Assembly: GCA_030524585.1 (NCBI GenBank) | Contig: JAUNGJ010000034.1 | Location: 1-32,620 of the forward strand | Length of the DNA stretch: 32,620 nt | Direction of reading: 5' to 3' | DNA from: Eubacteriales bacterium | GTDB lineage: Bacteria > Bacillota > Clostridia > Lachnospirales > Lachnospiraceae | Part shown: piece after piece, positions 7,018 to 31,980 of the stretch | Layout: every line of letters begins with the position of its first letter | Numbering within the stretch: the first letter of the stretch is position 1 | Program-made: the position numbers and the translations under genes | The notes under the pieces: model-generated | Told to the model about the DNA's origin: nothing | Database searches by the model: none | Seen by the model: the letters and a program-made list of their open reading frames with translations, nothing else

Positions 7018-7073
7018 ACGGTGCCTCCTCTGCTTTTTCATTATTATAACATTTATAAAAAATTCGTATGCAC

Positions 7074-7103: not shown

Positions 7104-7128
7104 GGGCATGCGGCTGTATTTACAATCA

Positions 7129-7156
7129 TTGACATGTTTCATAAAATTAAGAAAAT
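7129..7156 (+). promoter_or_regulatory. Possible promoter of PTS operon 1
   Basis: Perfect -35 TTGACA at 7129-7134 followed after 16 bp by a mediocre -10, GAAAAT (7151-7156). A weak -10 is what an activator-dependent promoter would show. A TACAAT at 7187-7192 is an alternative -10 without a good -35. No -24/-12 (sigma-54) element was seen here. Confidence 0.35.
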
Positions 7157-7242
7157 AACTGGGCTTAATCTGCCCGATATTCCAGATACAATAGAACTAC
7201 AATGAATGTCGACATTATTTAGAATTACAGGAGGTATAAGTC

Positions 7243-7548: not shown

Positions 7549-7575
7549 GTTTTCTAAAAGTTAGGAGGATAAAGT

Positions 7576-9340: not shown

Positions 9341-9776
9341 ATTGTTTGTTATTGAGGGCAGTGCTGAAACATGGCAGGAAGCATTGCGAATCACATCTGG
9401 TATTCTGATGGAACAGGGCTGTGTCTGCGATGATTTCTATGAAAGCTGTGTAGAGCGTGAAATAAATTATCCTACAGGGTTGACAGAGCTTTGTCCGATT
9501 GCCATTCCGCATACCTCAAAGGAGTATGTGAAACAGGAAGCTGTATGTGCCTTGAAGCTGGCTGGTCCGGTAGAATTTCGTCGAATGGATGACAGTGAAG
9601 GCATTGTACAGGTGAAATATGTTTTGAATTTAGCCTTTCTGGATGATAATGAACACCTCGAACTGATTTCAAGAATTATTCACTGCATTAAGGATACAGA
9701 GTTTGTTGAAAAGATGGACCGCATGTCAATCGAAGAATTAGAAGTGTTTTTAAAAGATAAGTTTTTAAAAAAATAA
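9333..9776 (+). CDS. PTS fructose/mannitol/galactitol-type IIA component (SgcA-like)
   Basis: Phosphocarrier between HPr and IIB of PTS operon 1. Active-site His60 lies in PIAIPH, preceded by the family motif REINYPTGL. An ATG at 9297 is in frame but has no ribosome binding site. The GTG at 9333 is preceded by a GAGGTG stretch and overlaps the stop of the previous gene in GTGAGTAA, a common coupling arrangement, and gives 147 residues, normal for IIA domains. The next gene follows after 13 bp with AAGGAG. Family sure; start moderately sure. Confidence 0.9.
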   Translation: MSKLFVIEGSAETWQEALRITSGILMEQGCVCDDFYESCVEREINYPTGLTELCPIAIPHTSKEYVKQEAVCALKLAGPVEFRRMDDSEGIVQVKYVLNLAFLDDNEHLELISRIIHCIKDTEFVEKMDRMSIEELEVFLKDKFLKK

Positions 9777-9789
9777 GGAGATTTTAATT

Positions 9790-10596
9790 ATGTGGACAGA
9801 AGAGTTATTTCATACAGGGAAACCAGTAATTGGCATGATTCACTTGTTGGGAATGCCTACGGATCCGAAGTATGATCCTGACGGAGGAATTCAGAAAATT
9901 TTAGATACGGCGAGAAGAGATCTGCACGCATTGCAGGATGGCGGCATTGATGGAGTACTGTTCTGCAATGAATTCTCCATTCCATATACGGATAATGTAA
10001 AGCCTGTTACGATTGCGGTTATGGCCAGGATTATTGGTGAACTTATGGAGGAGATTAAGGTCCCACACGGAGTGTGCGTCGCCATGGATCCGTTGAAAGG
10101 ATACGATCTTGCAGCAGCCGTAGAAGCAAAATTTATCCGGCAGACTATCCATGGAACAACGGCTGGTGTGTACGGTATCACAAATGTTCAGCCGGGAGAA
10201 GTAGAAAGACACAAGGTAGAAGTGGGATGTAAGGATATTAAGACATTAACTCCGGTGATCCCGGAGGGAACAGAGCAGGTTGCCAAGAGACCTATTGAGG
10301 AGGTGGCGAAAACATTGTGCTTTAATGTGAATCCAAGTGCATTGTTGATTTACAGCAATACGCCTGGTTCCAGCATTGATGTTGCTCAGGTTTCCAAGGT
10401 GAAAGGCGTTACGGATACTCCTGTGTTTGCAAGCAATGGAGTAAAACCGGAAACCGTGAAGGATATTCTGGCAGTGGCGGACGGATGTATTGTGGGAACA
10501 GGAATCAAAGTGGATGGTAAATTTGAGAATCCGGTAGACCCTGAGCGGACAAAAGAATTAATGGCAAATGCAAGAGAAGCCAGAGGAGAGAGTTAA
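9790..10596 (+). CDS. BtpA/SgcQ-family protein
   Basis: A 268-residue TIM-barrel-like protein of the BtpA family. The cyanobacterial BtpA namesake affects photosystem I accumulation; in enterobacteria the relative SgcQ sits in a PTS cluster, and its reaction is unknown to me. Visible landmarks are PVIGMIHLLGMP (13-24), GGIDGVLFCNEFSIPY, GVCVAMDPLKGYD and the phosphate-site-like end VFASNGVKPETV ... DGCIVGTGIKVDG, which resembles the phosphate-binding strands of barrel enzymes acting on phosphorylated substrates. It lies between IIA and the epimerase, and its stop overlaps the next start by one base (TAATG). A role on the PTS product is inferred from context only. Confidence 0.85.
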   Translation: MWTEELFHTGKPVIGMIHLLGMPTDPKYDPDGGIQKILDTARRDLHALQDGGIDGVLFCNEFSIPYTDNVKPVTIAVMARIIGELMEEIKVPHGVCVAMDPLKGYDLAAAVEAKFIRQTIHGTTAGVYGITNVQPGEVERHKVEVGCKDIKTLTPVIPEGTEQVAKRPIEEVAKTLCFNVNPSALLIYSNTPGSSIDVAQVSKVKGVTDTPVFASNGVKPETVKDILAVADGCIVGTGIKVDGKFENPVDPERTKELMANAREARGES

Positions 10597-11225
10597 TGAA
10601 GATTAGTCCATCGATTGCATCGGCAGATATTTTGAGAATTGCAGATGAGGTGCAGTTTACGAATCAGTATTTTGATGATATTCATCTGGATGTGGCAGAT
10701 GGGATTGCTGTGGGAGAGATTTCATTTGGAATTCAGATGTGCCGAAGAATCTGTGAGATTGCAACGCTGCCTATATCCCTTCATCTGGAAGTAAGCAATC
10801 CGCTTCAGTATGTGGAGCAGGTGAAGCAGGGCAATTTTGACATGGTATTTATTCAGGTGGATTGTCTGATGAATGCAAAAGAAGTCGTTGGCATCTATCG
10901 GGCAAATGCAATACCTGTCGGTATTAATCTCAGTAACCTTGATCTGGAGCGGGAGGACTTGAGGGAATTGTTGGAGATGACAGGGCATGTGCTGATAAAT
11001 ACTACCTATCATAACGATATTCGCCAGAGCCTGAGACGGGAGATGCTGGATTATGCAATCCGTTTAGCTAATGAAACAGAGCATAAAGTATGGATTGACG
11101 GAGCGATAAATTGGGATATCATAAAAGAAATCCAGAATTCTAATATTTATGCGGCTGTTATGGGAAGAGCAGTATTTTCAGATAAGGCAAATGCAGTCAG
11201 GGAAAAGAAGAATTTGTTTGGATAG
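10596..11225 (+). CDS. Ribulose-phosphate 3-epimerase-family enzyme (SgcE-like), divergent
   Basis: TIM-barrel ketose-phosphate 3-epimerase relative, 209 residues. The metal and catalytic set of the family is kept: H30 and D32 (DIHLDVADG), H63 (SLHLEV) and D168 (WIDGA), as is the opening PSIASAD and the GRAVF phosphate site near 190. Two family hallmarks are altered: the DVMDG methionine is Ala34, and the NPGFGGQ lid/phosphate loop is replaced by a different segment around residues 134-145 (INTTYHNDIRQS). This suggests an epimerase for a substrate other than ribulose-5-phosphate. Last gene of PTS operon 1, ending before a GC-rich hairpin. Confidence 0.85.
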   Translation: MKISPSIASADILRIADEVQFTNQYFDDIHLDVADGIAVGEISFGIQMCRRICEIATLPISLHLEVSNPLQYVEQVKQGNFDMVFIQVDCLMNAKEVVGIYRANAIPVGINLSNLDLEREDLRELLEMTGHVLINTTYHNDIRQSLRREMLDYAIRLANETEHKVWIDGAINWDIIKEIQNSNIYAAVMGRAVFSDKANAVREKKNLFG

Positions 11226-11268
11226 AGTGATAAATAAATTATATAACACAAATCCAGGCAGATAAGGT

Positions 11269-11303
11269 GAAACCGGCTTCCACTGTGGGGCCGGTTTCGT
11301 TAC
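11269..11303. terminator. Terminator of PTS operon 1 / aroE convergent region
   Basis: Perfect 9-bp stem GAAACCGGC (11269-11277) and GCCGGTTTC (11290-11298) around a 12-nt loop. The 3' side is only moderately T-rich (TTTCGTT). It lies between two convergent genes and can act on both strands. Confidence 0.6.
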
Positions 11304-11328
11304 AGGTAATATGTCTTTACAGGTGAGA

Positions 11329-12210
11329 TTACAGTTTGATATCAAGATGGAAGTATTTTTCATTGACGATCTCAACGGGCATCTTTCTGCCTGTCCATAA
11401 TTCGAAGGAGGCAGCACCCTGAAACAGCTGCATATATAAGCCGCCTACAACCGGGCAGCCATATTCTTTTGCCATCTGAATCAGTTTCGTTTCATATGGA
11501 TGGTAGATCGCATCGGTTACAATGAGACCCGGATGAAAATAGGATGGATCAGCTATCAGGCATTTGTCTGTATCAGGGGCCATTCCCACATTGGTTGCAT
11601 TAGATAATATATCACTGTTCTGTATAGATGTCCTGAGTGCAGAATCATCTTCCAGCGGATGCACGGTAATCCTGCAATCTGTACGTTGATTCAGAACCTC
11701 AGCCGTCTTTTCCACATGAGTATAAAATTCATCTGCACGGTTAAAGACATGAATTTCCGATGCCCCGTCGTAAGCTGCCTGGGCCAGAATGGCGGTTGCC
11801 GCTCCACCTGCTCCAAGGAGTGTAATGACTTTATCTTTGATATCGTATCCGGAAGCGCGAATGCCTTCCACATAGCCGATTCCGTCGGTGGTGTGTCCAG
11901 TAAGGACGCCGTTGTCATTGACGATAGTATTTACGGCACCACAGATTTGGGCGACGGGGGAAAGTTTATCCGCGAGCTGACACATCCGGTTCTTGTCAGG
12001 CATGGTAATATTCCAGCCGCGTACATTCATTGCTTTGAAGCCTTCGATCGTCTGCTCTAAAGTTTCTAATCCTACATTAAATGCTACATATACATAGTCA
12101 AGTCCTGCCTGTGCCAGTGCTTCATTCTGCATGGAAGGGGAAATGCTGTGTTCAATGGGGCTGCCGATTAATCCGATCAGCTTTGTTTTGGCTGTGATTT
12201 CTTTTTTCAT
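11329..12210 (-). CDS. aroE: Shikimate dehydrogenase
   Basis: NADP-dependent reduction of 3-dehydroshikimate to shikimate in aromatic amino-acid synthesis; quinate/shikimate dehydrogenase is an alternative because the two are hard to tell apart by eye. Motifs (293-residue form): GSPIEHSISPSMQN for substrate binding near the N-terminus, NITMPDK with catalytic Lys73, HTTDGIG with Asp109, and the nucleotide loop GAGGA (133-137). The usual NVTxPHK motif reads PDK here. Start: the ATG at 12219 immediately follows AAGGAG with no spacing, whereas the ATG at 12210 lies nine bases from it, so 12210 is chosen. It stands alone, convergent with PTS operon 1 and divergent from deoD. Confidence 0.93.
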   Translation of the reverse strand: MKKEITAKTKLIGLIGSPIEHSISPSMQNEALAQAGLDYVYVAFNVGLETLEQTIEGFKAMNVRGWNITMPDKNRMCQLADKLSPVAQICGAVNTIVNDNGVLTGHTTDGIGYVEGIRASGYDIKDKVITLLGAGGAATAILAQAAYDGASEIHVFNRADEFYTHVEKTAEVLNQRTDCRITVHPLEDDSALRTSIQNSDILSNATNVGMAPDTDKCLIADPSYFHPGLIVTDAIYHPYETKLIQMAKEYGCPVVGGLYMQLFQGAASFELWTGRKMPVEIVNEKYFHLDIKL

Positions 12211-20104: not shown

Positions 20105-22945
20105 TTAAGTATTTTCATCTGTTGCAGGCGGCGTCGGATATTGAACCAGTGTCAGGATAATATAGCATAATTCCGCATCGTTTACTGATATTTCAAAAGG
20201 TTCTGTTAATATGGATATATGTTCTCTTAATAGTGTGAACATAGACTGATTCTGTTTTATATATTCTTTCTCATTGTCAAAAACAACTTTTTGGTCACAG
20301 ATACAGCGTTCCAGCATGAAGCCAAGATGCAGGAGCAAAGACAGATGGAGTTCTCTGTTATCGGCAATCTGTGGCAGGTTTAATGAGATTAAAAATTTTT
20401 CTGAATACTGGACAGAAGCAGCGGGGTTCAGATGTAGTACGCTCCTGGACAGGAACTTTAAGCATTCATCCTGTACCGTATCTGTCGCATCGTCTTTTGT
20501 GACAATGCTGGTATACTCGGTAAGTGATTTGTTCAAAAAATCAATAAAATTTTTTTTGCCTGGCGCTGAAATCAGGCTGGATATGTGAAAGAACGGAATA
20601 TCCAGTGAAATCTCCATGTTGCCTATGCATGCCAGCAAATAAAACTGGGAACGGATTTCCTGATACTGAGGCGAGTTGTCTATAATATCGGAAATGGATA
20701 CTGCCAAAACCTGAATTCCGCTGATATTATTCTGAAACAGCTCCTGCTCGATCATCGCCTGAAAGGCGATACTCGTACCCAGACCAGAAGCACACATTGT
20801 AAGTATGGCAGGAGTCTTGGACGTGTTTTCGCCACGGGGCAGTTCCGTAGGTTTGTTGACCATATAGTTGTTGTACACGGAATTGATGTTGGCATCCCGG
20901 CTGAGAAATGTATGTGTAATATCTAGGGCCATCAATGTTGTTACATTGGGAATTGCCCGTACAGGAATGCCCGTCTCAAGGGTAAGCTTCTCGTCAAATG
21001 TTGTCAGAGATCCCATGTCTACCAGGAGAAGCACTCCTTTTTCACGATTGGACGTGAGCACTTCTCTGCGAACATTCTGGTAGGTTTCCGGAATTCCCTG
21101 TTCCAAAGGGACATCTACGGCCTTGACCAGATTGCATTCCATCAGACGGTTGCATACATTCGCAATACTGGAGGCAGTACTCTCTCCGTGTGCGACAATA
21201 ATAAGGCCTGGCCGTTCCTGATAGGATGTATCCCGCATATTGGAAAGAATCAGCGCGATCAGATATTCTTCATCTTCCGAAATGTGAATATTAAAATGAT
21301 TTTCAAAGCGGGAAACCATCTTTTGTGCAGCCGCAATTTCTTTGGACGCAGTTTGCTTGAGCGTGGAAATTTCTATTTCCGTAATACGCTTATGTGAGGC
21401 CATGCGTTCGAGCAGGAATTTAAAATGAAATGAAAGAACCAGGATATTTTTCTGATTCACTTCCAATCCGAGCTCTGCAAAGGCAGTTTGGGCAACATCA
21501 GTAGTAAAATCGACCACCTCCCGCCCGACGACTTTGTACATTTCCTCTCTGTGCAGATTCTGGTCGTAGAAGCGTTTCAGGATATCATCACAGTATGCCT
21601 GGATATCATCGGATAATTCTTCGTTCATCTGTTGACTGCTATAGCCATTGGAGGCAAAGCTGTCGATACGTTTCATCAGGTTGCGGTAGGCCTCTTCATC
21701 GTATAGCTTGTTGTAATGACAGGGCTTTCTGTCGGCTGAAAAGATCGTATATTTGGTGTTATATCGGCTTGGATAGGACAGGGTCTCTTCAGAAATGTTC
21801 TGATGATAGTAATTTCTGACTGCAGGTGACAGAAGATCAAAAGAAACCATGAGCTCTTCCTGGTTGCTGGTGTTGTTTAAATAAGATCTTGCGCACAGAA
21901 CCTTGATTTCCGAGGACAGCTGTCCGATATTTTCCGTAAATGGATAAATACAAAGTGCTTTAATAATTTTGGTATTAACAACATAGGATTTTAAAGTTGC
22001 GCTGGATTCCCGGACAAAGATATGTTCAATGATAGCAAGCTTCTCATCCATACTTTTTTCACGGTAGGGAGGAAGCGTGATCGTCAGAGGAATCCTTCGG
22101 GTAAATGTTTTGAGTAAAACATTTTTGGGATCTTCTGTCGTGGCGCCGATAATGCGTACGGAAGCCTTCCGCATATTAGAGCTTTCTCCAAGCTTCCGAT
22201 AACAGCCGGTATCCATCAGATAAAAAAGCAGTTCCTGGCCTTCTGGAGGAAGTCGGTGAATCTCGTCAAGAAAAAGAATGCCTCCGCTGGCCTGTTCTAC
22301 TAGTCCTGCGCTTTCCTGAAGGGCACCTGTAAAAGCCCCCTTTACATGTCCAAATAAATGGGACATCAAAAGCTGTGGATTATGGTAATAATCGGAACAG
22401 TTGAACTCTACAAAAGGGAAATCCTTCTTTTTCTTTTTTAATTTTTCCAATCCGAAATTATACATTGTACGGGCAAAGAGTGTTTTGCCGGTTCCGCTCT
22501 CGCCGATGAGAAGCGTATGCAATCCGTTGGGAGGATATACAATGGCAGCTTTTGCTTTTTCTATTTGAGTTTTCAGGCTCCCATCATGACCAATCAATCC
22601 ATCAAAAGCGCATATGGGATCATCTGATTGGTCTGCGGGTGTAACTGCGGCAAAAAAATCATCGACGGAGTAGACGTATCTGAAATTATTTTTTGAAACA
22701 CGGGAACGTATTAAATCCGCAGGCATAAAGTGAACGGGACGGCTGTCAATTTTAATGAGCTTTTTTTGAGAGACTAATTTATTGAGATATGCACTGGCAT
22801 TGGCACGGTTAATATCAAAACGCTTTTCAATCTCAGATGCGGTTACGCCACAGAGACGATGATCGGTCAACATCTCGGCCAGCCGGGCATCGTCAATGGT
22901 TTGCAGGACATATTCAAGTATCTTAGTTTCATTCATATTATTCAC
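20105..22945 (-). CDS. LevR-family sigma-54-dependent activator with PTS regulation domains
   Basis: Enhancer-binding protein that opens sigma-54 promoters in response to PTS phosphorylation. Order over 946 residues: winged helix-turn-helix (about 1-70); AAA+ domain (115-355) with Walker A GESGTGKT 148-155, the sigma-54-contacting loop GAFTGA 203-208 and Walker B GGILFLDEIH 221-230; PRD1 (about 415-570, H507); mannose-type IIA-like domain with H586 in VAHGEST; galactitol-type IIB-like domain with C718 in TMCASGLGTS; PRD2 (about 825-935, H873). This is the full LevR arrangement with all regulatory residues present. It starts 7 bp after the IIA gene, so the two are co-transcribed, probably from the minus-strand -24/-12 promoter at 23495. 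The likely targets are that promoter and the one at 23692. Confidence 0.95.
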   Translation of the reverse strand: MNNMNETKILEYVLQTIDDARLAEMLTDHRLCGVTASEIEKRFDINRANASAYLNKLVSQKKLIKIDSRPVHFMPADLIRSRVSKNNFRYVYSVDDFFAAVTPADQSDDPICAFDGLIGHDGSLKTQIEKAKAAIVYPPNGLHTLLIGESGTGKTLFARTMYNFGLEKLKKKKKDFPFVEFNCSDYYHNPQLLMSHLFGHVKGAFTGALQESAGLVEQASGGILFLDEIHRLPPEGQELLFYLMDTGCYRKLGESSNMRKASVRIIGATTEDPKNVLLKTFTRRIPLTITLPPYREKSMDEKLAIIEHIFVRESSATLKSYVVNTKIIKALCIYPFTENIGQLSSEIKVLCARSYLNNTSNQEELMVSFDLLSPAVRNYYHQNISEETLSYPSRYNTKYTIFSADRKPCHYNKLYDEEAYRNLMKRIDSFASNGYSSQQMNEELSDDIQAYCDDILKRFYDQNLHREEMYKVVGREVVDFTTDVAQTAFAELGLEVNQKNILVLSFHFKFLLERMASHKRITEIEISTLKQTASKEIAAAQKMVSRFENHFNIHISEDEEYLIALILSNMRDTSYQERPGLIIVAHGESTASSIANVCNRLMECNLVKAVDVPLEQGIPETYQNVRREVLTSNREKGVLLLVDMGSLTTFDEKLTLETGIPVRAIPNVTTLMALDITHTFLSRDANINSVYNNYMVNKPTELPRGENTSKTPAILTMCASGLGTSIAFQAMIEQELFQNNISGIQVLAVSISDIIDNSPQYQEIRSQFYLLACIGNMEISLDIPFFHISSLISAPGKKNFIDFLNKSLTEYTSIVTKDDATDTVQDECLKFLSRSVLHLNPAASVQYSEKFLISLNLPQIADNRELHLSLLLHLGFMLERCICDQKVVFDNEKEYIKQNQSMFTLLREHISILTEPFEISVNDAELCYIILTLVQYPTPPATDENT

Positions 22946-22952
22946 AAGCCTT

Positions 22953-23432
22953 TCAATCAGATAAGTGTTTTTTCAGTATCTGGTAAAGAGAAGTACGGTT
23001 CTCTGCCTGCCTGATTTCGGACAGTGCATCGGTATCAGAAAACAGACCGACAATTTTCTGGAGAATCGTTAACTGATCATTAGAACCGCAAACGGCCAGC
23101 AGGAATACAATATCTACCATAACATCGCGCTCGCCGTCTCCCATTTCTTTAAAAGCAACCGGGTTTTTTAGTGTGGCGACCAAAACCCGCGGCTCTAAAA
23201 CATAGTCCCGTTCTATTGCATGTGGAACTGCAACTTTCATAATATTGGTTGGGAGACCGGTCGGATAAATCCGTTCCCTGCGAATAACGGCGTCGCCATA
23301 GCCCTGCTTTACATATCCCCGGGAGTGCAGCTCATCTGAAAGTGAATGGAGAAGGGTCTCTGAATCGGGGGCCTCTACATCCATAAAAATCAAACCTTCA
23401 TCCAGTAAGTCTTCAATTTTAAATTTGTCCAT
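22953..23432 (-). CDS. PTS galactitol/fructose-type IIA component
   Basis: Phosphocarrier for PTS system 2, 159 residues. Active-site His71 lies in VAVPHAIERDY, preceded by RRERIYPTGLP, the same family pattern as the first IIA of this window. It is not next to its IIB/IIC genes but on the opposite strand, forming a two-gene unit with the activator. AGGAGAG lies before the ATG at 23432. Having IIA in the regulator's transcript means its level rises with the regulator if that promoter is self-activated (inference). Confidence 0.93.
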   Translation of the reverse strand: MDKFKIEDLLDEGLIFMDVEAPDSETLLHSLSDELHSRGYVKQGYGDAVIRRERIYPTGLPTNIMKVAVPHAIERDYVLEPRVLVATLKNPVAFKEMGDGERDVMVDIVFLLAVCGSNDQLTILQKIVGLFSDTDALSEIRQAENRTSLYQILKKHLSD

Positions 23433-23494: not shown

Positions 23495-23510
23495 AGCAAA
23501 AATCATGCCA
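23495..23510 (-). promoter_or_regulatory. Sigma-54 (-24/-12) promoter of the IIA-activator operon
   Basis: On the minus strand TGGCAT (23505-23510), 5-bp spacer, TTGCT (23495-23499). Only one base departs from the consensus TGGCAC-N5-TTGCW, and the invariant GG and GC are correctly spaced. Transcription would start near 23484, about 50 nt before the IIA ATG. It points away from the plus-strand sigma-54 promoter at 23692. Confidence 0.75.
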
Positions 23511-23526
23511 AAAAGTGTTTGGAATC

Positions 23527-23554
23527 TTGAAATGGATAAAGTTTTACGTATTAT
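23527..23554 (+). promoter_or_regulatory. Possible sigma-A promoter within the sigma-54 control region
   Basis: TTGAAA (23527-23532), 16-bp spacer, TATTAT (23549-23554), facing the IIB gene with a leader of about 230 nt. It could give basal expression; in such AT-rich DNA a chance match is also possible. Confidence 0.25.
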
Positions 23555-23584
23555 AGCATAAAACAGATTTGGTTTCAGTGAATC

Positions 23585-23637
23585 TAAACACTAATTAAAC
23601 ACTATCCCGGCTAAAATATACCGTTTCAAAATAGTGT
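23585..23637. promoter_or_regulatory. Candidate enhancer (upstream activating sequence) for the LevR-type activator
   Basis: TAAACACTA occurs twice as a direct repeat (23585-23593 and 23596-23604), 11 bp apart, about one helical turn. ACACTAT (23599-23605) is repeated in inverted form as ATAGTGT (23631-23637). A further related AAGTGTTT lies at 23513-23520. All lie between the two divergent -24/-12 promoters, about 55-110 bp upstream of each, where enhancer-binding proteins normally bind. Confidence 0.5.
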
Positions 23638-23691
23638 ATATCGTATGTGAAATACTGTCAAAATGGGGCGTTTTGAGGAGATACAGAAAAT

Positions 23692-23706
23692 TGGCACGGC
23701 TTTTGC
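23692..23706 (+). promoter_or_regulatory. Sigma-54 (-24/-12) promoter of the PTS-2 catabolic operon
   Basis: TGGCAC (23692-23697), 5-bp spacer GGCTT, TTGC (23703-23706): an exact match to the sigma-54 consensus. The expected start near 23718 leaves a leader of about 70 nt to the IIB ATG at 23789. No good sigma-A promoter lies closer to the gene. Confidence 0.88.
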
Positions 23707-23788
23707 TGTATTGATAGGCATCAGGACTGAATGCCTAAAAATGGTGAAAGGGCAGATCAGAAGTATATTTTAGGAAGGAGAAACGTGT

Positions 23789-24082
23789 ATGAAAACAATT
23801 ATTGTAGCGTGTGGCGGAGGCATTGCAACATCAGCAACTACAGCTACGAAAATCAACGGGCGTCTGGAGGACATGGGGTTATCCGGAAAAGCAAAGGCAG
23901 AAGCGGTCGATATTAAGTCTCTGGATATGTTTATTAACAATGCAGATCTTTATGTTTCGATCACGCCTATGGCACGTGGAATGCAGGAATACCCGATTCC
24001 GACCGTCAGCGGAATCCCGTTTCTGACCGGCATCGGTGCAGATCAGGCAATGCAGCAGATCGTTGAGCTTTTGAAGCTGTAG
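23789..24082 (+). CDS. PTS galactitol-family IIB component
   Basis: Phosphocarrier of PTS system 2, 97 residues, with phosphorylated Cys8 in TIIVACGGGIATSATTA. Ribosome binding site AGGAAGGAG before the ATG. First gene of an operon of eight same-strand genes running to about 30001 and driven by the -24/-12 promoter at 23692. It shares the CGGGIATS loop with the first IIB here but differs clearly elsewhere. Confidence 0.93.
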   Translation: MKTIIVACGGGIATSATTATKINGRLEDMGLSGKAKAEAVDIKSLDMFINNADLYVSITPMARGMQEYPIPTVSGIPFLTGIGADQAMQQIVELLKL

Positions 24083-24129: not shown

Positions 24130-25497
24130 ATGGAAGCATTACAAATTGTATTTCAAAGCATTCTTGACATGGGCGCAGCCGTGTTTCTGCCGATTGTCAT
24201 TTTTATCATTGGTCTGGTTGTAGGTCTTAAACCGGGCAAAGCAATTTCAGCAGGATTGACGCTGGGCGTTGCCCTGACAGGTATCAATCTGGTAATCAGC
24301 TACATGAGTGAAACGGTTGGTGTTGCCGCGCAGAGCTTTGTAGAGAGCACAGGGGTTCAGCTTACTGCACTGGATATGGGATGGGCGCCGGCCCTGGGAC
24401 TTTGCTGGTCATGGAAGTATGCGTTCGTAATGTTCCCGGTTCAGATTGGCATCAACGTGCTTATGCTGGTACTCGGCTGGACAAAGACACTGAATGTGGA
24501 TATGTGGAACGTTGCAAATAAAATTTTCACAGCATTCATCGTATCCTCTGTAACAGGAAGTTCAATCATAGGATTTGCCGTGGCCATTGTGCAGATTGTT
24601 CTTGAGCTGAAAAATGCAGATGCCACAAAGAATCAGATTACAGAGCTTACAGGCGTTCCGGGTGTTGCGATGCCTCATCCGATGTTCCTGAGTAATATTT
24701 TCTTCTATCCATTTGCACAGCTTTTGGACAAGATTCCATTCTTCCGCTATGAGCTGAATGCGGCAACTTTGAAGCAGAAGATTGGTATTTTTGGAGAGAA
24801 TCATGTGCTTGGGTTTATTGTAGGAACCATTGTCGGTCTGGTCGGCGGACAGGGAGTTGGAGCATTGCTTACCGGTGTACAGGCAGGTACTGCGCTCACC
24901 TTGTTCCCAATGGTTTCCAAGCTGTTTATGACAGCTCTGACACCTATTTCAGATGCTGCCAATGAATTTATTAAGAAGAAATTCCCTGGCAGAGAGATGG
25001 CGATCGGTTTGGATTGGCCTATCCTTGCCGGCAATCCGGAAATTTGGGTTGCAATTATCTTTACAATTCCGGTTGCGCTGATTGTTGCATTGGTTCTTCC
25101 GGGAAATACGACACTTCCATTTGGTAATTTGATGAACGTATGTGTCTGCGCGGCAGCATTTGTAGCATGCAAGGGCAATATGTTAAAAATGATTGCTACT
25201 TCATGGATCATGGTTCCGGTTCTCTGCTGGTCAGCTTCTGACTTCGCACCAATGCTGACAGAGCTTGCTATCTCTACCGGTTCTGCGGATATCCTTGTTG
25301 AAGGACAGCAGCTTGCATGGTGGGGAATGGATATCGCTGAAATCCGGTGGATGATCGTAGAAGTTCTCAGAGGAAATATCGGCGGTATTGCAGTATTGAT
25401 CGCATTCATCGCGCTTGCAGTATATTATTTCAAGGCGCAGAAGAAGGAAGAGCATGCGGCCGCAGTACGTATGGGATGGATTTCAGAAGAAAAATAA
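24130..25497 (+). CDS. PTS galactitol-family IIC permease
   Basis: Membrane channel of PTS system 2, 455 residues with many hydrophobic segments. The opening segment FQSILDMGAAVFLPIVIFIIGLVVGLKPG and the later GLDWPILAGNPEIW are family-typical; the C-terminus is a short charged cytosolic tail (KKEEHAAAVRMGWISEEK). AAAGGA lies about 12 bases before the ATG. The product would be a phosphorylated polyol or sugar. Galactitol is the family's reference substrate, but the neighbouring enzymes are not the gat set. Confidence 0.92.
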   Translation: MEALQIVFQSILDMGAAVFLPIVIFIIGLVVGLKPGKAISAGLTLGVALTGINLVISYMSETVGVAAQSFVESTGVQLTALDMGWAPALGLCWSWKYAFVMFPVQIGINVLMLVLGWTKTLNVDMWNVANKIFTAFIVSSVTGSSIIGFAVAIVQIVLELKNADATKNQITELTGVPGVAMPHPMFLSNIFFYPFAQLLDKIPFFRYELNAATLKQKIGIFGENHVLGFIVGTIVGLVGGQGVGALLTGVQAGTALTLFPMVSKLFMTALTPISDAANEFIKKKFPGREMAIGLDWPILAGNPEIWVAIIFTIPVALIVALVLPGNTTLPFGNLMNVCVCAAAFVACKGNMLKMIATSWIMVPVLCWSASDFAPMLTELAISTGSADILVEGQQLAWWGMDIAEIRWMIVEVLRGNIGGIAVLIAFIALAVYYFKAQKKEEHAAAVRMGWISEEK

Positions 25498-25519: not shown

Positions 25520-26167
25520 ATGCTGGAGGAATTAAAAAAAGAAGTACTCAGGGTATCCAGATTGGCTGAAGAGACAGGGCTCTGCCATCATGGCGGCGGG
25601 AATTTCAGTCAGATTGACCGGGAGAGTGGATTGGTGGTAATCACGCCTCATGCGGAGTCCCGTTATAATTTCAATGCAGAAGATATGCTTGTGATTGACC
25701 TGGAAGGAAATATTGTTGAAAATAAGAAGAATTTTACGCCCAGCAGTGAGACGCCGATGCATCTGCTGATCTACAAAGAGAGACCGGACGCAACAGCAGT
25801 CTGCCATACGCACGCACACAATGCAGCAGCCTTTGCCTGCCTGGGTGTGCCGGTAAAGCCGGTAATTTTTGAGTCGATGATGTATGGAGGATATTGCAGA
25901 GTTGTACCTTTTGAAGAACCAGGAAGCATTGAACTCGGCTGGTCTGCAGTGAAAGGTCTGGAGGGTACATATGCCACAATCCTTGGCAGGCACGGTCTGA
26001 TTTCTATTGGAGAAAATATTTATGACGCATATTTAAAGACAGTATATGTTGAGGATGTCTGCGATGTAAATATACGTGCAGCATCTGTAGTTGGATATGA
26101 TAATCTGGATTGCCTAAGTGACGAACAGATTGTATACTTCCGCGACGTATTAGGATTAAAAGCTTAA
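25520..26167 (+). CDS. Class II (FucA/AraD-type) aldolase
   Basis: Zinc-dependent aldolase/epimerase-superfamily enzyme of 215 residues, predicted to cleave a ketose phosphate. Catalytic Glu77 (SSETPMH) and zinc ligands His96, His98 (HTHAHN) and His158 (GRHGL) have almost the spacing of L-fuculose-1-phosphate aldolase (E73, H92, H94, H155). An in-frame start at 25415 lies inside the IIC gene and adds unrelated Arg-rich sequence; the ATG at 25520 has AAAGGAG eight bases upstream and is chosen. The following DhaK/DhaL pair suggests it may release dihydroxyacetone rather than DHAP (inference). A ribulose-5-phosphate 4-epimerase role is the main alternative. Confidence 0.9.
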   Translation: MLEELKKEVLRVSRLAEETGLCHHGGGNFSQIDRESGLVVITPHAESRYNFNAEDMLVIDLEGNIVENKKNFTPSSETPMHLLIYKERPDATAVCHTHAHNAAAFACLGVPVKPVIFESMMYGGYCRVVPFEEPGSIELGWSAVKGLEGTYATILGRHGLISIGENIYDAYLKTVYVEDVCDVNIRAASVVGYDNLDCLSDEQIVYFRDVLGLKA

Positions 26168-26266: not shown

Positions 26267-26500
26267 ATGAAACGAAAAAATATTTTGTGGTATTTGGGGA
26301 TTGTAATTGCTTCGGTTTTGCTGGCATTTGGGATTTTTCTGAGAAACTGGCCGTTGAGTCTGGTTGGATTTGCAATTGCTTTAATATTGAAAGCGACTAA
26401 TAAATACATACCTTTGCCCCAAATATATAGGGACATGGGCATCGATAACGAGGTTTTTGAAGGAAGGGCAAAGCAGAATGATGAAGAAAATAATGAATGA
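26267..26500 (+). CDS. Small two-segment membrane protein of unknown function in PTS-2 operon
   Basis: Not recognised. 77 residues: a basic start (MKRKN), two membrane segments (about 7-24 and 28-42), then a soluble acidic tail ending DEENNE. AAAGGGGA lies before the ATG at a good distance, supporting real translation. The end overlaps the DhaK gene by about 20 bp, a coupling arrangement. Its place inside a catabolic PTS operon parallels the unexplained membrane protein in PTS operon 1, but the two are not visibly related. Confidence 0.65.
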   Translation: MKRKNILWYLGIVIASVLLAFGIFLRNWPLSLVGFAIALILKATNKYIPLPQIYRDMGIDNEVFEGRAKQNDEENNE

Positions 26501-27470
26501 TTCAAGTCATGTTGTCAGCGATATGCTTGCTGGCATTGCGGCGGTAAATCCCAAAGTGTGTTATGACCGTGAAGGCGAGGTGATTTACCGGAGCGAAAAA
26601 AGGAAAAAGGTAGGGCTTGTGTCAGGCGGCGGAAGTGGGCATGAACCGGCCCATGCAGGATATGTGGGAACAGGAATGCTGGATGCGGCGGTGGCAGGCA
26701 ATGTATTTGCCTCTCCGGACCCTGCGAGAATCCTAAAGGGCATTGAGTATGCCGACAGCGGAGAAGGGGTACTTCTGATTATTAAGAATTACTCCGGAGA
26801 TATTATGAATTTTGAGATGGCCGGAGATCTGGCCCAGGATATGGATGTTAAAGTAAAAAGTGTGATCGTTAAGGACGATGTTGCGGTAAAGGAAAGCACA
26901 TTTTCAACGGGGAGAAGAGGAATATCCGGAACCGTATTTGTCCATAAGATTGCCGGAGCAAAGGCAGAGGCGGGCGGCTCTCTGGAGGAAGTGGCAGAGC
27001 TTGCGCAAAGGACAGCGGATAATGTACGGTCCTTTGGAGTGTCTTTATCAAGCTGTATTCTGCCGGGGGTTGGGACGCCGGGATTTGTCATTGAAGACGG
27101 GCAGATGGAGCTTGGCATGGGAATTCACGGCGAACCAGGTATTGAGAAAACAACAATGAAGAGTGCAGCAGAGATTGCGGAGATTATGGTGGATAAGATT
27201 ACGGCAGATCTTAACTATTCCGGCAGAGAGACAGCGGTTATGGTAAACGGTCTGGGCGGGACACCACTGATGGAGCTGTATATCCTGGCTGGGGAGATAG
27301 ATAAACAGATTCGTTCCAGAAATATCACACCGGTGAAATATCTGGTGGGGAACTATATGACTTCATTAGAGATGGCCGGAGCTTCTGTGTCAATGCTCCG
27401 CCTGGATGATGAAATGAAAGAATACCTAATGGCGCCCTGCAGCACGATGGCCTGGAAGGAAGGTGTATAA
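26481..27470 (+). CDS. dhaK: Dihydroxyacetone kinase subunit DhaK
   Basis: Substrate-binding subunit of dihydroxyacetone kinase; binds the ketone covalently through a histidine as a hemiaminal. The 329 residues match the family throughout: SGGGSGHEPAHAGYVGTGML (48-67), GVLLIIKNYSGDIMNFE (96-112), and GIHGEPG with the covalent His216. The open frame extends to a TTG upstream; the family's usual N-terminus (MKKIINDP-like) points to the ATG at 26481, with AAGGAAGGG upstream; 26478 is equally possible. It overlaps the small membrane protein gene. The substrate could be dihydroxyacetone or a related short ketose such as erythrulose. Confidence 0.94.
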   Translation: MKKIMNDSSHVVSDMLAGIAAVNPKVCYDREGEVIYRSEKRKKVGLVSGGGSGHEPAHAGYVGTGMLDAAVAGNVFASPDPARILKGIEYADSGEGVLLIIKNYSGDIMNFEMAGDLAQDMDVKVKSVIVKDDVAVKESTFSTGRRGISGTVFVHKIAGAKAEAGGSLEEVAELAQRTADNVRSFGVSLSSCILPGVGTPGFVIEDGQMELGMGIHGEPGIEKTTMKSAAEIAEIMVDKITADLNYSGRETAVMVNGLGGTPLMELYILAGEIDKQIRSRNITPVKYLVGNYMTSLEMAGASVSMLRLDDEMKEYLMAPCSTMAWKEGV

Positions 27471-27472: not shown

Positions 27473-28120
27473 ATGGGATTTACAATGACGCCGGCAGAGT
27501 ATGTGGACTACATAGTTCTGACAGCAGATGAGATTGAAAAGAATGGCGAATATGTAACAGCATTGGATGCAAAGACGGGAGACGGCGATCACTGGGTAAA
27601 TTTAAACGCAGGATTTCAGAAGCTGATATCCATACAGGATGAACTTAAGAGTCTGGAGCTGGCGCCTATGCTTCGGAAGATTGGTATGACCCTGATGTCA
27701 GCGATCGGCGGTTCGTCAGGGGTTCTGTACGGAAGCGGTTATATTGCCGCATCAAAAGCATTAAACGGTGTGGAGACATTGGATATCCGAACACTGGGTA
27801 CACTGCTTTGGGCAGAGCTCGATGCGATTATGGAGCGCGGAAAAGCGCAGCCTGGATGGAAGACAATGATTGACAGCTTATATGAAGGGCTGGAAAGCTA
27901 TCAGGCGGCGTTGGAATCAGAAAGAGATGAAAGGGCAGTTATGGAAGCGCTGAAGGAAGGCGCCCGGCAGGGAAGAGACCATACACGAGAGATGGAGGCA
28001 GTAAAAGGACGCGCCAGCTATCAGACCAATAAAGGTGTGGGGGAACTGGATCCGGGAGCAGTAACCATGTGTATCCAGCTGGAATGCCTGAGTGATTATG
28101 TGATCAATAATAAATTATAA
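27473..28120 (+). CDS. dhaL: Dihydroxyacetone kinase nucleotide subunit DhaL
   Basis: Nucleotide-binding partner of DhaK, 215 residues. The three magnesium-binding aspartates D32, D37 and D39 (DAKTGDGDH) have the same spacing as D30/D35/D37 of E. coli DhaL; GGSSGVLYGSG and GRASYQTNKGVGELDPGA follow. In the usual motif a Gly follows GDGDH; here it is Trp40. In the PTS-linked form DhaL keeps ADP bound and is re-phosphorylated by DhaM, but no dhaM lies in this window. Starts two bases after the dhaK stop with GGAAGGTG as ribosome binding site. Confidence 0.93.
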   Translation: MGFTMTPAEYVDYIVLTADEIEKNGEYVTALDAKTGDGDHWVNLNAGFQKLISIQDELKSLELAPMLRKIGMTLMSAIGGSSGVLYGSGYIAASKALNGVETLDIRTLGTLLWAELDAIMERGKAQPGWKTMIDSLYEGLESYQAALESERDERAVMEALKEGARQGRDHTREMEAVKGRASYQTNKGVGELDPGAVTMCIQLECLSDYVINNKL

Positions 28121-28139: not shown

Positions 28140-29177
28140 ATGAAGAAAGTAAGTTTTTATGCACCAGAAGATATTCGTGTTGAGGAGGCGCCGGTACCGG
28201 TGCCAGGGCCTGGAGAAGTGGTAGTAAAGAACAAAGTAACACTGACCTGTGGTACAGATGTTAAAACCTATAAAAGAGGATACCGCTATGAGCCGCCATT
28301 TTCAATGGGACACGAGGCAGCAGGAATTGTAGAAGCTATAGGTGAGGGCGTTACCAAATTCAAAGTGGGTGACCGCGTAGTAGCTCATAACAGTGCACCT
28401 TGCGGAAAATGCTATTACTGTAAGAAGGGACTCCAATCTATGTGTCCGGATTTGATTCAGAATCAGTTTCAAAATGGCGCCTATGCACAGTATCAGTTGA
28501 TTCCGGCGCCGATCGTTGAGCAGAATATGTTCCATATGCCTGATTCGATGAGCTATAAGCAGGCAGCGCTGCTGGAGCCGCTTTCCTGCGCGCTATACGG
28601 AACCGCCAACGTACCAATTGAGCTGGGAGATACGGTGTGTGTAAATGGCTGCGGACCAATTGGCCTGATGTTTATCCGTATGTGCTATCTGCGTGGAGCA
28701 AGAGTGATTGCATGTGACCTTTCGGATGTTCGTCTTGATCTGGCAAAGAAACTCGGAGCACAGGAAATTATCAATATTAAAAATGTAGAAGACCAGGCAC
28801 AGGCAGTCAGGGATCTGACAGAGGATGGCAGAGGTGTAGATGCGGCAATCGAAGCAGCAGGCATCCCGGAGGTTTGGTCCATTGCCATAAACATGGCCCG
28901 TCCGGGTGGATTTGTTCTTTGCTTTGGCGGTACAAAGAAGGGACTTAGCGTACCGGTAGATACAACCAAACTTCACTATGAGCAGATTACAATTAAAGGC
29001 GTGTTCCACACAACTCCTGTCCATGTGAATGCAGCATTTGAGATGCTGAAGATGAATGCAATTACGGCAGAGGATTTTGTACAGAACGAATATGAAATTG
29101 AGGACATTGAGAAGGCAATTCTGGAGCATGCATCCGGAGCGGTTATTAAGAATGCAATCGTTTATCCAGAGGATTAA
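28140..29177 (+). CDS. Zinc-dependent medium-chain alcohol/polyol dehydrogenase
   Basis: NAD(P)-dependent dehydrogenase, 345 residues, of the sorbitol/galactitol-phosphate dehydrogenase type. Catalytic zinc ligands Cys37 and His58-Glu59 (GHEAAG), with Glu146 as a further candidate; structural zinc cysteines C88, C91, C94 and C102; nucleotide loop GCGPIG 170-175 followed by Asp193, which favours NAD over NADP. AAAGGAG precedes the ATG. In this operon it most likely oxidises the polyol phosphate delivered by the PTS to a ketose phosphate (inference, by analogy with GatD). Confidence 0.92.
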   Translation: MKKVSFYAPEDIRVEEAPVPVPGPGEVVVKNKVTLTCGTDVKTYKRGYRYEPPFSMGHEAAGIVEAIGEGVTKFKVGDRVVAHNSAPCGKCYYCKKGLQSMCPDLIQNQFQNGAYAQYQLIPAPIVEQNMFHMPDSMSYKQAALLEPLSCALYGTANVPIELGDTVCVNGCGPIGLMFIRMCYLRGARVIACDLSDVRLDLAKKLGAQEIINIKNVEDQAQAVRDLTEDGRGVDAAIEAAGIPEVWSIAINMARPGGFVLCFGGTKKGLSVPVDTTKLHYEQITIKGVFHTTPVHVNAAFEMLKMNAITAEDFVQNEYEIEDIEKAILEHASGAVIKNAIVYPED

Positions 29178-29179: not shown

Positions 29180-30001
29180 ATGAAAATAGGACTAATTGCA
29201 TTGGATGTAGATGGAACGCTGGTAGATGACAGTCATCTTCGGATTTCGGAGCGCAATAAAGAGGCTTTGCGGGAATGCGCTGCACGGGGGATTCATATTG
29301 TGCTTGCCAGCGGCCGGCCCATGTCTATGATGCGTCCGGTGGCGGAAGAGCTTGAATGTGTGCGGTATGTGATTTCAGCAAACGGAAGCGCTGTATGGGA
29401 TTTGCAGAATGACAGGAAGATAATAAGCAGGGAAATTCCGGCGGGGCTGTCCGGGCAAATTATGGAAATCCTTCTGGATTATCCCATCGCACTGGAGGTG
29501 TACAGTGATGGCTATGCCTGTGTGAATAAGGGATGGCATTTGGAGAACTTTGACAAAATGCCGGCAGAATATCTGGAATTTAGAAGAGCTGGTAACCGGT
29601 TCTGTGATGACCTTTCCCGGGAGTTGGCCGGGAAATCTGTGGAGAAGTTCAATGTGGATGATATGTCACAGGAAATTCTCAAGGAAGTGCTTGCACGGCT
29701 AGAGCCGATGAAGGCACAGCTTGCAATGCAGTTTATTCAGTGCTATGATAATCTGGAGATTAATAGTCAAAAGGCCACCAAAGGAGCGGCGCTGGCAAAA
29801 TTATGTGAGCAGCTTGAGATTACGCCTGCACAGGTTATGGCATTTGGCGACAGTGATAATGATGTGACGATGCTTATCTTCGCTGGAGAGTCCTTTGCGA
29901 TGGCGAATGGAGAAGCGGCTGCTAAGAAGGCAGCAAAATATATGGCAAAGGCAAATACGGAAGACGGAGTTGCTGAAATGATTGAAACGTATGTGCTATA
30001 A
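29180..30001 (+). CDS. HAD-superfamily Cof-type phosphatase
   Basis: Phosphatase of the Cof/YidA group, 273 residues. Nucleophile Asp9 and acid Asp11 in LDVDGTLVD, motif II LASGRP, Lys201 in ATKGAAL, and the acidic motif GDSDND at 223-228. A large cap domain lies between motifs II and III. It starts two bases after the dehydrogenase stop, so it belongs to the same operon, and it is followed by a terminator. It could dephosphorylate a pathway intermediate or a toxic side product; specificity cannot be read from sequence. Confidence 0.92.
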   Translation: MKIGLIALDVDGTLVDDSHLRISERNKEALRECAARGIHIVLASGRPMSMMRPVAEELECVRYVISANGSAVWDLQNDRKIISREIPAGLSGQIMEILLDYPIALEVYSDGYACVNKGWHLENFDKMPAEYLEFRRAGNRFCDDLSRELAGKSVEKFNVDDMSQEILKEVLARLEPMKAQLAMQFIQCYDNLEINSQKATKGAALAKLCEQLEITPAQVMAFGDSDNDVTMLIFAGESFAMANGEAAAKKAAKYMAKANTEDGVAEMIETYVL

Positions 30002-30028
30002 GCCTGATTCTTGTATAAATGTTTGGGG

Positions 30029-30067
30029 AAAGAGATTTGCAGGTAGGGACTGTGAATCTCTTTTCTT
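30029..30067 (+). terminator. Terminator of the PTS-2 operon, upstream of rpoN
   Basis: AAAGAGATT (30029-30037) and AATCTCTTT (30055-30063) are perfect 9-base arms with a 17-nt loop that can pair further (CAG/CTG), followed by TCTTC within a T-rich stretch. It separates the operon from rpoN. Confidence 0.65.
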
Positions 30068-30100
30068 CATTGCACGCCTAAGATGAGGGAGGGTGAGAGG

Positions 30101-31420
30101 ATGGACCTTGAGATGAAAAATGCTTTACAGCAAAAACAGGTATTGTCCCAGAAAATGATTCAGTCAGTTCAGATCCTGGAAATGGGAGCGGATGAGATAG
30201 ATAATTTTTTAAAAGATATGGCAGAGAAAAATCCGCTGGTTGACCTGGAGGATGCTCCTACAGAAGAAAGAAAAGATCTGAAAAGCAGGCTGGAATGGGA
30301 AAGACAGAATGATTATCAGAATGCGTCCTATTATTCAGCGGACGGCGAGCAGGAGGGGAGAGAAGATTACGCCCGTAAGTCTGAGGGGGAGACTCTTGAG
30401 GAGTACCTGATGGCACAGCTCACACCTTTGTGTGGAGAGAGATATCAAAAAAGTATATTTTACTACCTGGTAAAATCTTTGAATAGTCAGGGGTATCTTG
30501 ATATGGAACCTGTTGAAATGGCGGAAGAGCTTGAAGAATACCTAGAGGTGCTGCAATCCTGCGAACCGGCAGGAATCGGTGCAAGAGATCTGAAAGAATG
30601 TCTGCGGATTCAGGTGATGCGGATGCATCCGAAGGAAGAACTGCCGCTCCGGATGATAGAAGAGTGTTTGGAACTTCTCGGAGAACGACGATTATCGGTA
30701 ATCGCAAAGAAGATGGAATGTTCTCTGGATGAGGTAAAGGAAGCTGCGAAGATCATCTATAGTCTTAATCCCAAGCCGGGGAACGGATTTTCTGATAAAG
30801 AGAACCTGCAGTATGTATATCCTGATGTGTTCGTGATCCGGCATAGAGATGGCTTCGATGTGGTTGTAAATGAATCGGCCGCTGTAAGAATGAATATAAA
30901 TCCCTATTATCTGACGCTTCTGGAGAATGAGGGGATTGGACAGGAAACGGTCGATTATATCAAGAAGAAGCTGGAACAGGTGAAGTGGGCGACAAAGTGT
31001 GTAGACCAGAGAAATCAGACGCTGCGAAAGGTAGCGGGTGCCGTGGTTGATTGGCAGCATGGATTTTTTGAAAAAGGAGCAGGGAAGCTCATCCCGATGC
31101 GTCTGACAGATATTGCACAGAAGACCGGAATGCATACTTCGACAGTGAGCAGGGCGGTGAGAAATAAATATCTGCAATGCGCTTATGGAATTTTCCCAAT
31201 CAGTTATTTTTTCTCAAAGACGATCGGAGAAAGTACACCGGAGGAAGTAAAGGACTGTCTCAGAGGAATCATAGAAGAAGAGGATAAGAAAAAACCAAAA
31301 AGCGACCAGAAGCTGGCAGAATTATTGGAGAAGAAAGGATATTCGATATCCCGCAGGACTGTTGCAAAATACCGTACGGAAATGGGAATTCCGGGAACCA
31401 GCAGACGAAAAGAATACTGA
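30101..31420 (+). CDS. rpoN: RNA polymerase sigma-54 factor
   Basis: Alternative sigma factor recognising -24/-12 promoters and needing an AAA+ activator. In the 439-residue form: Gln- and Leu-rich activator-responsive region I (about 1-45, ALQQKQVLSQKMIQSVQIL), an acidic region II, core-binding region (about 100-270, with EPAGIGARDLKECL), helix-turn-helix near 333-356 (LTDIAQKTGMHTSTVSRAV) and the RpoN box SRRTVAKYR at 417-425. Start: an ATG at 30083 adds six residues; GGGAGGGTGAGAGG directly precedes the ATG at 30101, so I prefer the latter. The RpoN box is intact. It sits immediately after a sigma-54-dependent operon in this window. Confidence 0.96.
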   Translation: MDLEMKNALQQKQVLSQKMIQSVQILEMGADEIDNFLKDMAEKNPLVDLEDAPTEERKDLKSRLEWERQNDYQNASYYSADGEQEGREDYARKSEGETLEEYLMAQLTPLCGERYQKSIFYYLVKSLNSQGYLDMEPVEMAEELEEYLEVLQSCEPAGIGARDLKECLRIQVMRMHPKEELPLRMIEECLELLGERRLSVIAKKMECSLDEVKEAAKIIYSLNPKPGNGFSDKENLQYVYPDVFVIRHRDGFDVVVNESAAVRMNINPYYLTLLENEGIGQETVDYIKKKLEQVKWATKCVDQRNQTLRKVAGAVVDWQHGFFEKGAGKLIPMRLTDIAQKTGMHTSTVSRAVRNKYLQCAYGIFPISYFFSKTIGESTPEEVKDCLRGIIEEEDKKKPKSDQKLAELLEKKGYSISRRTVAKYRTEMGIPGTSRRKEY

Positions 31421-31440
31421 TATTCGCCGGGACCAAAAAG

Positions 31441-31470
31441 AAGGGAACTGTAAGCTCAGTTCCTTTTATT
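31441..31470 (+). terminator. Terminator after rpoN
   Basis: AAGGGAACTG (31441-31450) pairs with CAGTTCCTTT (31457-31466) around a 6-nt loop, the core GGAACTG/CAGTTCC being perfect, followed by TTTATT. An A-run lies before the stem. Confidence 0.75.
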
Positions 31471-31527
31471 GATCGTAATGGAAATTTTCTCCAGTAATTC
31501 AAAGAAATTCCTTCCAGACCCGTAAGA

Positions 31528-31638
31528 TTACATGTGCTTTGTAACAAAGCCGTCTTTTTCAAGACGCATCAGCATCTTGGCTACGATGCTCATATTCATT
31601 TTTCGATATAGGGTTGAAATATTTTTTGGGGTGTCCAT
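31528..31638 (-). pseudogene. Possible remnant of a winged helix-turn-helix (MarR-like) regulator
   Basis: A 36-codon minus-strand frame reads NISTLYRKMNMSIVAKMLMR then LEKDGFVTKHM and stop. The pattern (helix, turn, recognition helix, LEKDGFV entering a wing) resembles the DNA-binding part of MarR-type regulators but lacks the rest of the protein. Beyond the stop the same frame continues with FFELLEKISITINKRN, similar in kind to a regulator's C-terminal helix. A weak AGAGGTC lies before the ATG. It reads as a decayed gene rather than a working one, but it is short enough to be chance. Confidence 0.3.
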
Positions 31639-31980
31639 CGTTTGACCTCTGTTCTGGAAATAGTTGGTATATATAACTGATGTTATATCTTTTCATATGC
31701 TTTGCCAGGTTCTATAACTTATGCGAAGGATTATAGCCGAATTATTATTATCGGCCTGCTATTTGCCGCGCTTTATTGAAATCCTGATCCGGTACAGAGA
31801 GGAAATGTTCTGGTCCCGGATTGGGATTTTGTTTTTCCGGAATTGCGTAAAAAATTATAATACCAGTACCGATGAGATCATGCGGGATAAATGTAGCAGA
31901 CAGATAGGGCTCTGACCCTTGAATTTTCCAGTTATTTGTGTTAAAACTTTCCATAGGGAATTATAGAAGGAGTGATATAT
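31639..31980. other. Gap between rpoN region and CobW-like gene
   Basis: About 340 bp with no convincing gene. Two short open frames (31721-31915 plus and 31748-31954 minus) lack ribosome binding sites and recognisable content. A TTGAAT at 31919-31924 is a possible -35 for the GTPase gene but no good -10 follows (TAAAAC at 17 bp). AGAAGGAG at about 31966-31973 is the ribosome binding site of the next gene. Confidence 0.5.

Follow-up and report, generated by a model that had tools for sequence, protein, structure and literature searches.

Gene content of the locus

The window analysed here, the whole 32,620-nucleotide stretch from a gut bacterium of the Lachnospiraceae (Eubacteriales), contains two divergent gene runs built around a galactitol-type phosphotransferase system (PTS). 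The original prediction had assigned IIA and a sigma-54 activator to the minus strand and IIB and IIC to the plus strand, and domain searches bore this out. The genes of the two runs and the structures around rpoN are as follows:

20105..22945, minus strand: LevR/DagR-like sigma-54 activator of the PRD type (listed ORF of 946 aa with GTG start; in-frame ATG 3 codons in)
22953..23432, minus strand: PTS EIIA of the fructose/galactitol type, opening the activator operon (PTS_EIIA_2, 4.1e-30)
23789..24082, plus strand: PTS EIIB, galactitol-like (domain/family profiles)
24130..25497, plus strand: PTS EIIC, galactitol family (EIIC-GAT, 1.9e-64)
25520..26167, plus strand: class II aldolase, fuculose-phosphate type (domain/family profiles)
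26267..26500, plus strand: small ORF, 77 aa, membrane-protein-like by eye (58% identity in G009)
26457..27470, plus strand: dihydroxyacetone kinase DhaK (TIGR02363 above cutoff; listed ORF with TTG, ATG at 26478)
27473..28120, plus strand: dihydroxyacetone kinase DhaL (TIGR02365 above cutoff)
28140..29177, plus strand: zinc alcohol/polyol-phosphate dehydrogenase (domain/family profiles)
29180..30001, plus strand: Cof-type HAD phosphatase (no tblastn match in the G009 copy of the locus)
30025..30070, plus strand: hairpin before rpoN that may attenuate or leakily terminate transcription (fold z -3.5 in the window, -3.9 in G009)
30101..31420, plus strand: rpoN, sigma-54, closing the plus-strand run (listed ORF starts at 30083)
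31444..31475, plus strand: hairpin and T-rich tail after rpoN, likely transcription-unit end (fold of 31430-31475, z -3.5)

The activator was matched by the Pfam profiles Sigma54_activat (1.8e-41), PRD (5.3e-17, in two stretches) and EIIA-man (8.2e-8), with the GAFTGA motif carried by the AAA sigma-54 interaction domain and the PRD and EIIA-type regulatory domains lying behind it. Against the NCBIfam DagR equivalog it scored 506 bits and did not reach the cutoff of 1400, and the protein is therefore a relative of DagR and not DagR itself. The gene at 30101-31420, overlooked in the original prediction, encodes sigma-54, as its product scored 391 bits against the TIGR02395 cutoff of 277 and contains all three of the Pfam AID, CBD and DBD domains. 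The substrate of the cassette can be placed no closer than a polyol-like PTS sugar. Another galactitol-type PTS region is found at 5029-10596 of the window, where a PRD/EIIA regulator is divergent from an EIIC-GAT gene with a BtpA-family gene downstream.

From the promoter box described below to rpoN, the plus-strand genes form one same-strand run, also in G009, a genome of the same genus, with the hairpin standing before rpoN. This hairpin has a U-rich 3' arm in both genomes and is absent from the list returned by the terminator scan; as a terminator-like structure kept in G009, it may shield rpoN from transcription started at the operon promoter, or rpoN may have its own promoter. A candidate sigma-54 box directly before rpoN (30026-30041, GGGAAAGAGATTTGCA) was rejected, as its GG-N10-GC spacing is lost in G009 when read by eye. 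For the stem at 31444-31475, the terminator scan gave a minus-strand entry only. Past this hairpin, approximately 440 bp (31476-31917) hold no nameable gene, and the G009 counterpart of this stretch is much shorter.

Divergent sigma-54 promoter candidates and the elements between them

The intergenic region between the IIA and IIB genes holds the following elements:

23495..23511, minus strand: sigma-54 promoter candidate for IIA-activator, TTGGCATGATTTTTGCT (read 23511-23495)
23550..23558, minus strand: extended -10 of sigma-A-like form, TGCTATAAT, that may act as a basal promoter of IIA-activator (CTGAAA-17-TATAAT with TG)
23585..23604, plus strand: tandem pair of activator half-sites TAAACACTA set 11 bp apart, candidate upstream activating sequence (UAS; 17 of 20 columns invariant at 23586-23605)
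23631..23640, minus strand: inverted half-site of the UAS candidate (plus strand ATAGTGTATA; 10 of 11 columns invariant at 23631-23641)
23691..23707, plus strand: sigma-54 promoter candidate for the plus-strand run from IIB-IIC onwards, TTGGCACGGCTTTTGCT

A scan recovered the two -24/-12 boxes at the predicted coordinates and in the predicted orientations, divergent and about 180 bp apart. As had been proposed, one of these conserved boxes is faced by an operon encoding a LevR-type activator (AAA with GAFTGA, PRD and EIIA domains), and the other faces IIB-IIC. The minus-strand site had been described as one base off; it is in fact a full match to TTGGCAYN5TTGCT, and both boxes contain the GG-N10-GC core within this pattern. 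The Clostridiales sigma-54 consensus given by Nie 2019 (PMC6615313) is TTGGCATNNNNNTTGCT, with T at the Y position, so that the minus box is an exact match to the published clostridial consensus and the plus box is one base off.

We reject a chance origin of the two boxes as highly improbable. Searching the window with the shorter pattern of the original prediction and at most one mismatch does yield three matches, the third at 23970-23984 within IIB, versus 1.93 expected, and as 32 of 100 shuffles reach three, this test is unconvincing on its own. With the 17-base TTGGCAYN5TTGCT, however, the two boxes are the sole full-score sites in the 32.6-kb window, and under a first-order Markov model the exact matches expected in the 356-bp intergenic region are 5.7e-5 (plus strand) and 8.2e-5 (minus strand), below 1e-4 for either strand; spacing and orientation are correct, and the boxes are conserved. 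Across the genome, TGGCAYN5TTGCW has 12 matches, versus two for the backward control. Two of the 12 are the window pair and two lie in a second rpoN locus, one of them (L133) inside a 94-aa opposite-strand ORF that was called by script and is probably spurious; the other eight comprise seven within genes and one intergenic site. This lone extra intergenic site (L129, G000:C20:85397-85412) has just a 78-aa ORF downstream and no clear gene close by.

The core of the half-site pair, the activator-binding-like CACTAATTAAACACTA, has a single occurrence in the genome, and with up to three mismatches allowed the other nine matches all carry three (28 for the backward control). The tandem half-sites are present in G009 and in a further genome of the genus, G007, with the CACTA cores kept and the flank of the first copy differing. 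The extended -10 before IIA makes basal sigma-A transcription possible; it has the same bases in G007 and is degenerate in G009, with seven of nine columns invariant, not above background, and the sigma-A-like promoter scan that listed such sites returned 32 overall versus 23 in shuffles. Adjoining the minus -24 box, an AGTGT at 23511-23520 looks like a half-site for the activator and is found in all three genomes. A role for this element as a brake was considered and rejected, with 7 of 10 columns invariant and conservation not above background.

Conservation and block-wise presence within the genus

Eleven genomes of the genus were sampled, including the window's own (G000). Orthologs of the activator were detected in three, the window's own, G007 (77%) and G009 (76%), and a fourth genome, G006, gave just a weak partial match. 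The original prediction had named conservation of the -24/-12 elements in related species as a check, and both boxes are kept in the two same-genus genomes with the locus, as are the CACTA half-sites between them. In a three-genome alignment of the intergenic region, 28 of 32 box columns are invariant versus 107 of the 237 columns that belong to neither box nor half-site (Fisher 3.3e-6), rising to 55 of 63 (4.6e-10) for boxes and half-sites together, the half-sites having been picked after the alignment was viewed. The minus box (23495-23510) has 15 of 16 invariant columns and ranks in the top 11 of 285 equal-width windows by invariance; the plus box (23692-23707) has 13 of 16 and ranks in the top 37, making its conservation less outstanding.

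Gene order is kept in G009, where rpoN follows the dehydrogenase and holds the same place even though no HAD match was found there. G007 retains an intact activator, IIA and both boxes, and its promoter leader is followed by a C-terminal remnant of rpoN (L057, 3540-4200), with no plus operon in between. No rpoN other than this remnant was found in G007, which is listed as 94% complete, so its boxes record descent and not present use.

Sequences of rpoN were detected in three of the 11 genomes, the same three that hold the locus, and none was found in the other eight. Stretches of 8-16 kb from these eight locus-less genomes were searched by tblastn with the window genes (E 1e-10, more than 30% of the query), and there were zero matches to the activator, IIA, IIB, IIC or rpoN. 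Weak matches (25-44% identity) to the aldolase, dehydrogenase, DhaK, DhaL and HAD families occurred in some of the stretches, several kilobases off and outside the gap. The CobW neighbour lies close to the rubredoxin gene in six of the eight, and in G004 and G006 it lies close to the next gene on the rubredoxin side instead. Break points in the BLAST alignments fell at approximately 20015 and 31918 in G008 and at approximately 19985 and 31968 in the four other genomes tested with the rubredoxin side present. With the flanks joined in eight of 11 genomes and break points at these positions, about 12 kb with sigma-54, its activator and their targets forms a block that a genome either has or lacks. 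The GC content of this block (0.448 versus 0.434) does not stand out.

Further rpoN loci in the genus and family

Two rpoN genes were found in the window's genome, which is 91.8% complete. Its eight matches to Pfam Sigma54_activat include just two with GAFTGA, and by gene linkage each cassette contains one rpoN and one GAFTGA activator. The second cassette (L011, G000:C71:40000-58000; rpoN at 7680-8957 and activator at 9942-11390, both on the minus strand) is an eight-gene run behind the box TGGCACAGAATTTGCT, starting with three molybdenum-hydroxylase subunits, a diaminopentanoate-dehydrogenase-like protein and a symporter, and ending with a PAS-AAA-Fis activator, an XdhC protein and rpoN, the last 16 bp after the XdhC gene. 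An identical 16-base box is found downstream of this rpoN, before an antiporter gene. The two RpoN proteins fall in well separated parts of an RpoN tree, built by a quick method and with several long branches, and are therefore not recent copies of one another.

Three rpoN genes were found in G009. At one of these loci (L059, 3769-11052), the rpoN ORF as called begins 50 bp behind the box TGGCACGATTTTTGCT, which stands back to back with TGGCACGTCTTTTGCT, the latter before transketolase genes, an alcohol dehydrogenase and a LevR-type activator; this activator is 30% identical to that of the window, and the locus is a distantly related one. A third -24/-12 box at L059 precedes a mannose-type PTS. 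Another G009 rpoN lies on a 6-kb contig (L140) on which no site above 10/12 was found. In total, a sigma-54 box precedes rpoN within its own run in four of the five intact cases found in the genus, three of them identified by script (the window, L059 and L011) and one, L058, by synteny, as it was unlisted by the script.

Family-wide, rpoN was detected in 62 of 397 sampled genomes (E 1e-20). Of the 70 rpoN places considered (67 in those 62 genomes and three in G009, the G007 remnant being excluded), 33 lie within 15 kb of an activator, versus 1.7 expected from random placement of the 166 activators (E 1e-25 or better, leaving out the one of G007). Where a genome has one rpoN and one activator, the two are linked in 12 of 19 cases, and contig ends hide some such links, as 26 of 65 fetched stretches are shorter than 18.9 kb.

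Two broader generalisations were tried and rejected. A family-wide rule that rpoN lies behind sigma-54 boxes is not supported, as boxes at 11/12 or better occur in eight of 69 rpoN runs and four of 32 activator runs, compared with 113 of the 694 remaining runs at these loci (at 12/12, four of 69, two of 32 and 63 of 694), so that neither rpoN runs nor activator runs are richer in boxes. Genes were called by a simple method for these counts, and L058, a known positive, escaped it. A single ancient pairing of LevR with rpoN likewise lacks support: linkage to LevR-type activators is scattered across the RpoN tree, requiring eight changes for nine rows on this quick tree with several long branches, versus a shuffled mean of 8.7, with 143 of 500 shuffles as low.

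Discussion

Taken together, this locus is probably a sigma-54 switch that is complete in itself, serves a galactitol-type PTS and can be gained or lost as a unit. Two promoters, the activator that they require and the sigma-54 that they require all lie in one cassette, which thus looks both self-contained and self-reinforcing, and by supplying its own sigma-54 it could work where, as in most sampled genomes of the genus, this factor is otherwise lacking. The original interpretation points the right way but is incomplete, the possible loop being larger than predicted with rpoN in the locus.

LevR-type regulators are switched off when the PTS phosphorylates them. Applied to this locus, phosphorylated PTS proteins would hold the activator off when substrate is lacking, and substrate uptake would drain the phosphate and allow the activator to work. 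Bound at the central half-sites, the activator would then open both back-to-back sigma-54 promoters, the minus promoter yielding IIA and more activator, and the plus promoter yielding IIB, IIC, the catabolic enzymes and, by read-through, the RpoN needed by both promoters. Activator, transporter and probably sigma factor would increase together, a positive feedback from which we infer switch-like behaviour, and the loop would need seeding by a basal sigma-A promoter or by leak.

Whether sigma-54 belongs to this loop depends on how rpoN is transcribed. Constitutive expression from a sigma-A promoter of its own near the hairpin, leaving only the activator and PTS autoregulated and sigma-54 outside the loop, appears unlikely. 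The U-rich hairpin before rpoN in the window and G009 would suit such a promoter, as would a TATAAT read by eye between hairpin and rpoN in G009 and the weak constitutive promoter that rpoN of Rhodobacter capsulatus has besides its autoactivated one (PMC6925177). However, this TATAAT is missing from the window, where just 30-37 nt or so separate the hairpin from the start codon with no sigma-70-like site listed by the scan, and the terminator scan, which also misses the hairpin, places no terminator on the plus strand between the genes of this run; in the related cassettes, rpoN either follows XdhC closely (L011) or stands directly behind a sigma-54 box (L059). For the minus operon, it is quite unlikely that IIA-activator is mainly transcribed by sigma-A, with the minus box weak or restraining. 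This box is the better conserved of the two and matches the clostridial consensus exactly, which argues for its use against an extended -10 about 40 bp upstream of it, shared base for base with G007, and the half-site-like AGTGT in three genomes, neither of them conserved above background. SoxR of Bacillus thuringiensis does repress its own gene (PMC4941409), but soxR, as described there, has no typical -12/-24 motif, so this case differs.

The two RpoN proteins of the window's genome might also be interchangeable, their linkage to activators reflecting joint transfer only and not private partnerships, a reading that we take seriously without favouring it and that is compatible with a self-contained switch except for exclusivity. 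The boxes of both cassettes share the TGGCAY-N5-TTGCT core, as interchangeable factors would have it, although the two RpoN are well separated in the quick tree, each beside its own activator, and the pairs of Cereibacter sphaeroides are functionally specific (PMC11999139), the situation here being known from linkage.

Extending the self-contained switch to the family, we tentatively suggest, as close to an even call, that sigma-54 in Lachnospiraceae is often accessory and spreads in self-sufficient cassettes, and that one genome may hold two independent, private sigma-54 systems, each kept on by a positive loop of its own. Sigma-54 is commonly regarded as one chromosomal factor serving many activators. 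If our reading is true, a sigma factor placed in its own target run beside its own activator, and missing from most sampled genomes of its genus, would help explain why the occurrence of sigma-54 in Clostridiales does not obviously follow phylogeny, and such cassettes would offer small natural modules for probing bistability and insulation between sigma-54/activator pairs.

Comparison with known systems

The lev operon of Bacillus subtilis combines the LevR activator, a PTS target, a -24/-12 promoter and upstream half-sites. The window locus has this same architecture of activator, target, promoter and half-sites, and differs in its split, galactitol-type PTS, in a box directed at the activator operon as well, and in the presence of rpoN. 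LevR is treated as a reference enhancer-binding protein (EBP) by Nie 2019 (PMC6615313), where mopR is listed among the MopR targets, so that predicted autoregulated activators are not new in Clostridia. According to the same study, the 57 Clostridiales genomes with sigL carry one copy each, and the presence of sigma-54 in Clostridiales does not obviously correlate with phylogeny.

The closest parallels for rpoN are from Proteobacteria. In R. capsulatus, nifU2-rpoN is an autoactivated superoperon (PMC6925177), in which rpoN stands at the end of a run behind a promoter of the sigma-54/activator-dependent type, as is predicted for the window. That system serves nitrogen fixation in a Proteobacterium with one rpoN for NifA and AnfA, whereas the window holds a sugar cassette with the activator in a divergent operon behind its own box. 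The prxS-rpoN2 genes of Rhizobium etli and Mesorhizobium loti place a second rpoN in a NifA-activated operon, carried in M. loti on an integrative conjugative element (PMC3538637); these hosts also have a chromosomal rpoN1, and nifA2 is described as not autoregulated, in contrast to a genus in which most sampled genomes have no rpoN. In C. sphaeroides, each RpoN studied so far has its own bEBP (PMC11999139), much as the several RpoN of the window's genome each have an activator alongside by gene linkage; specificity rests on genetics in the former and the Lachnospiraceae case is known from linkage alone.

Sigma-54 control of rpoN has been predicted in several classes including Clostridia, with rpoN enriched among genes behind predicted sigma-54 promoters (PMC12316311), an enrichment presented in the excerpt of that source at class level, without a cassette, activator pairing or transfer. 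Glycolysis genes and yhbJ are conserved rpoN neighbours in Firmicutes (PMC3162934). No report of a Lachnospiraceae sigma-54 cassette of this kind was found in the open-licence literature searched. Autoactivated rpoN genes and rpoN-activator pairs are already known in Proteobacteria; new here are the rpoN within the locus and the block-wise presence and absence of sigma-54.
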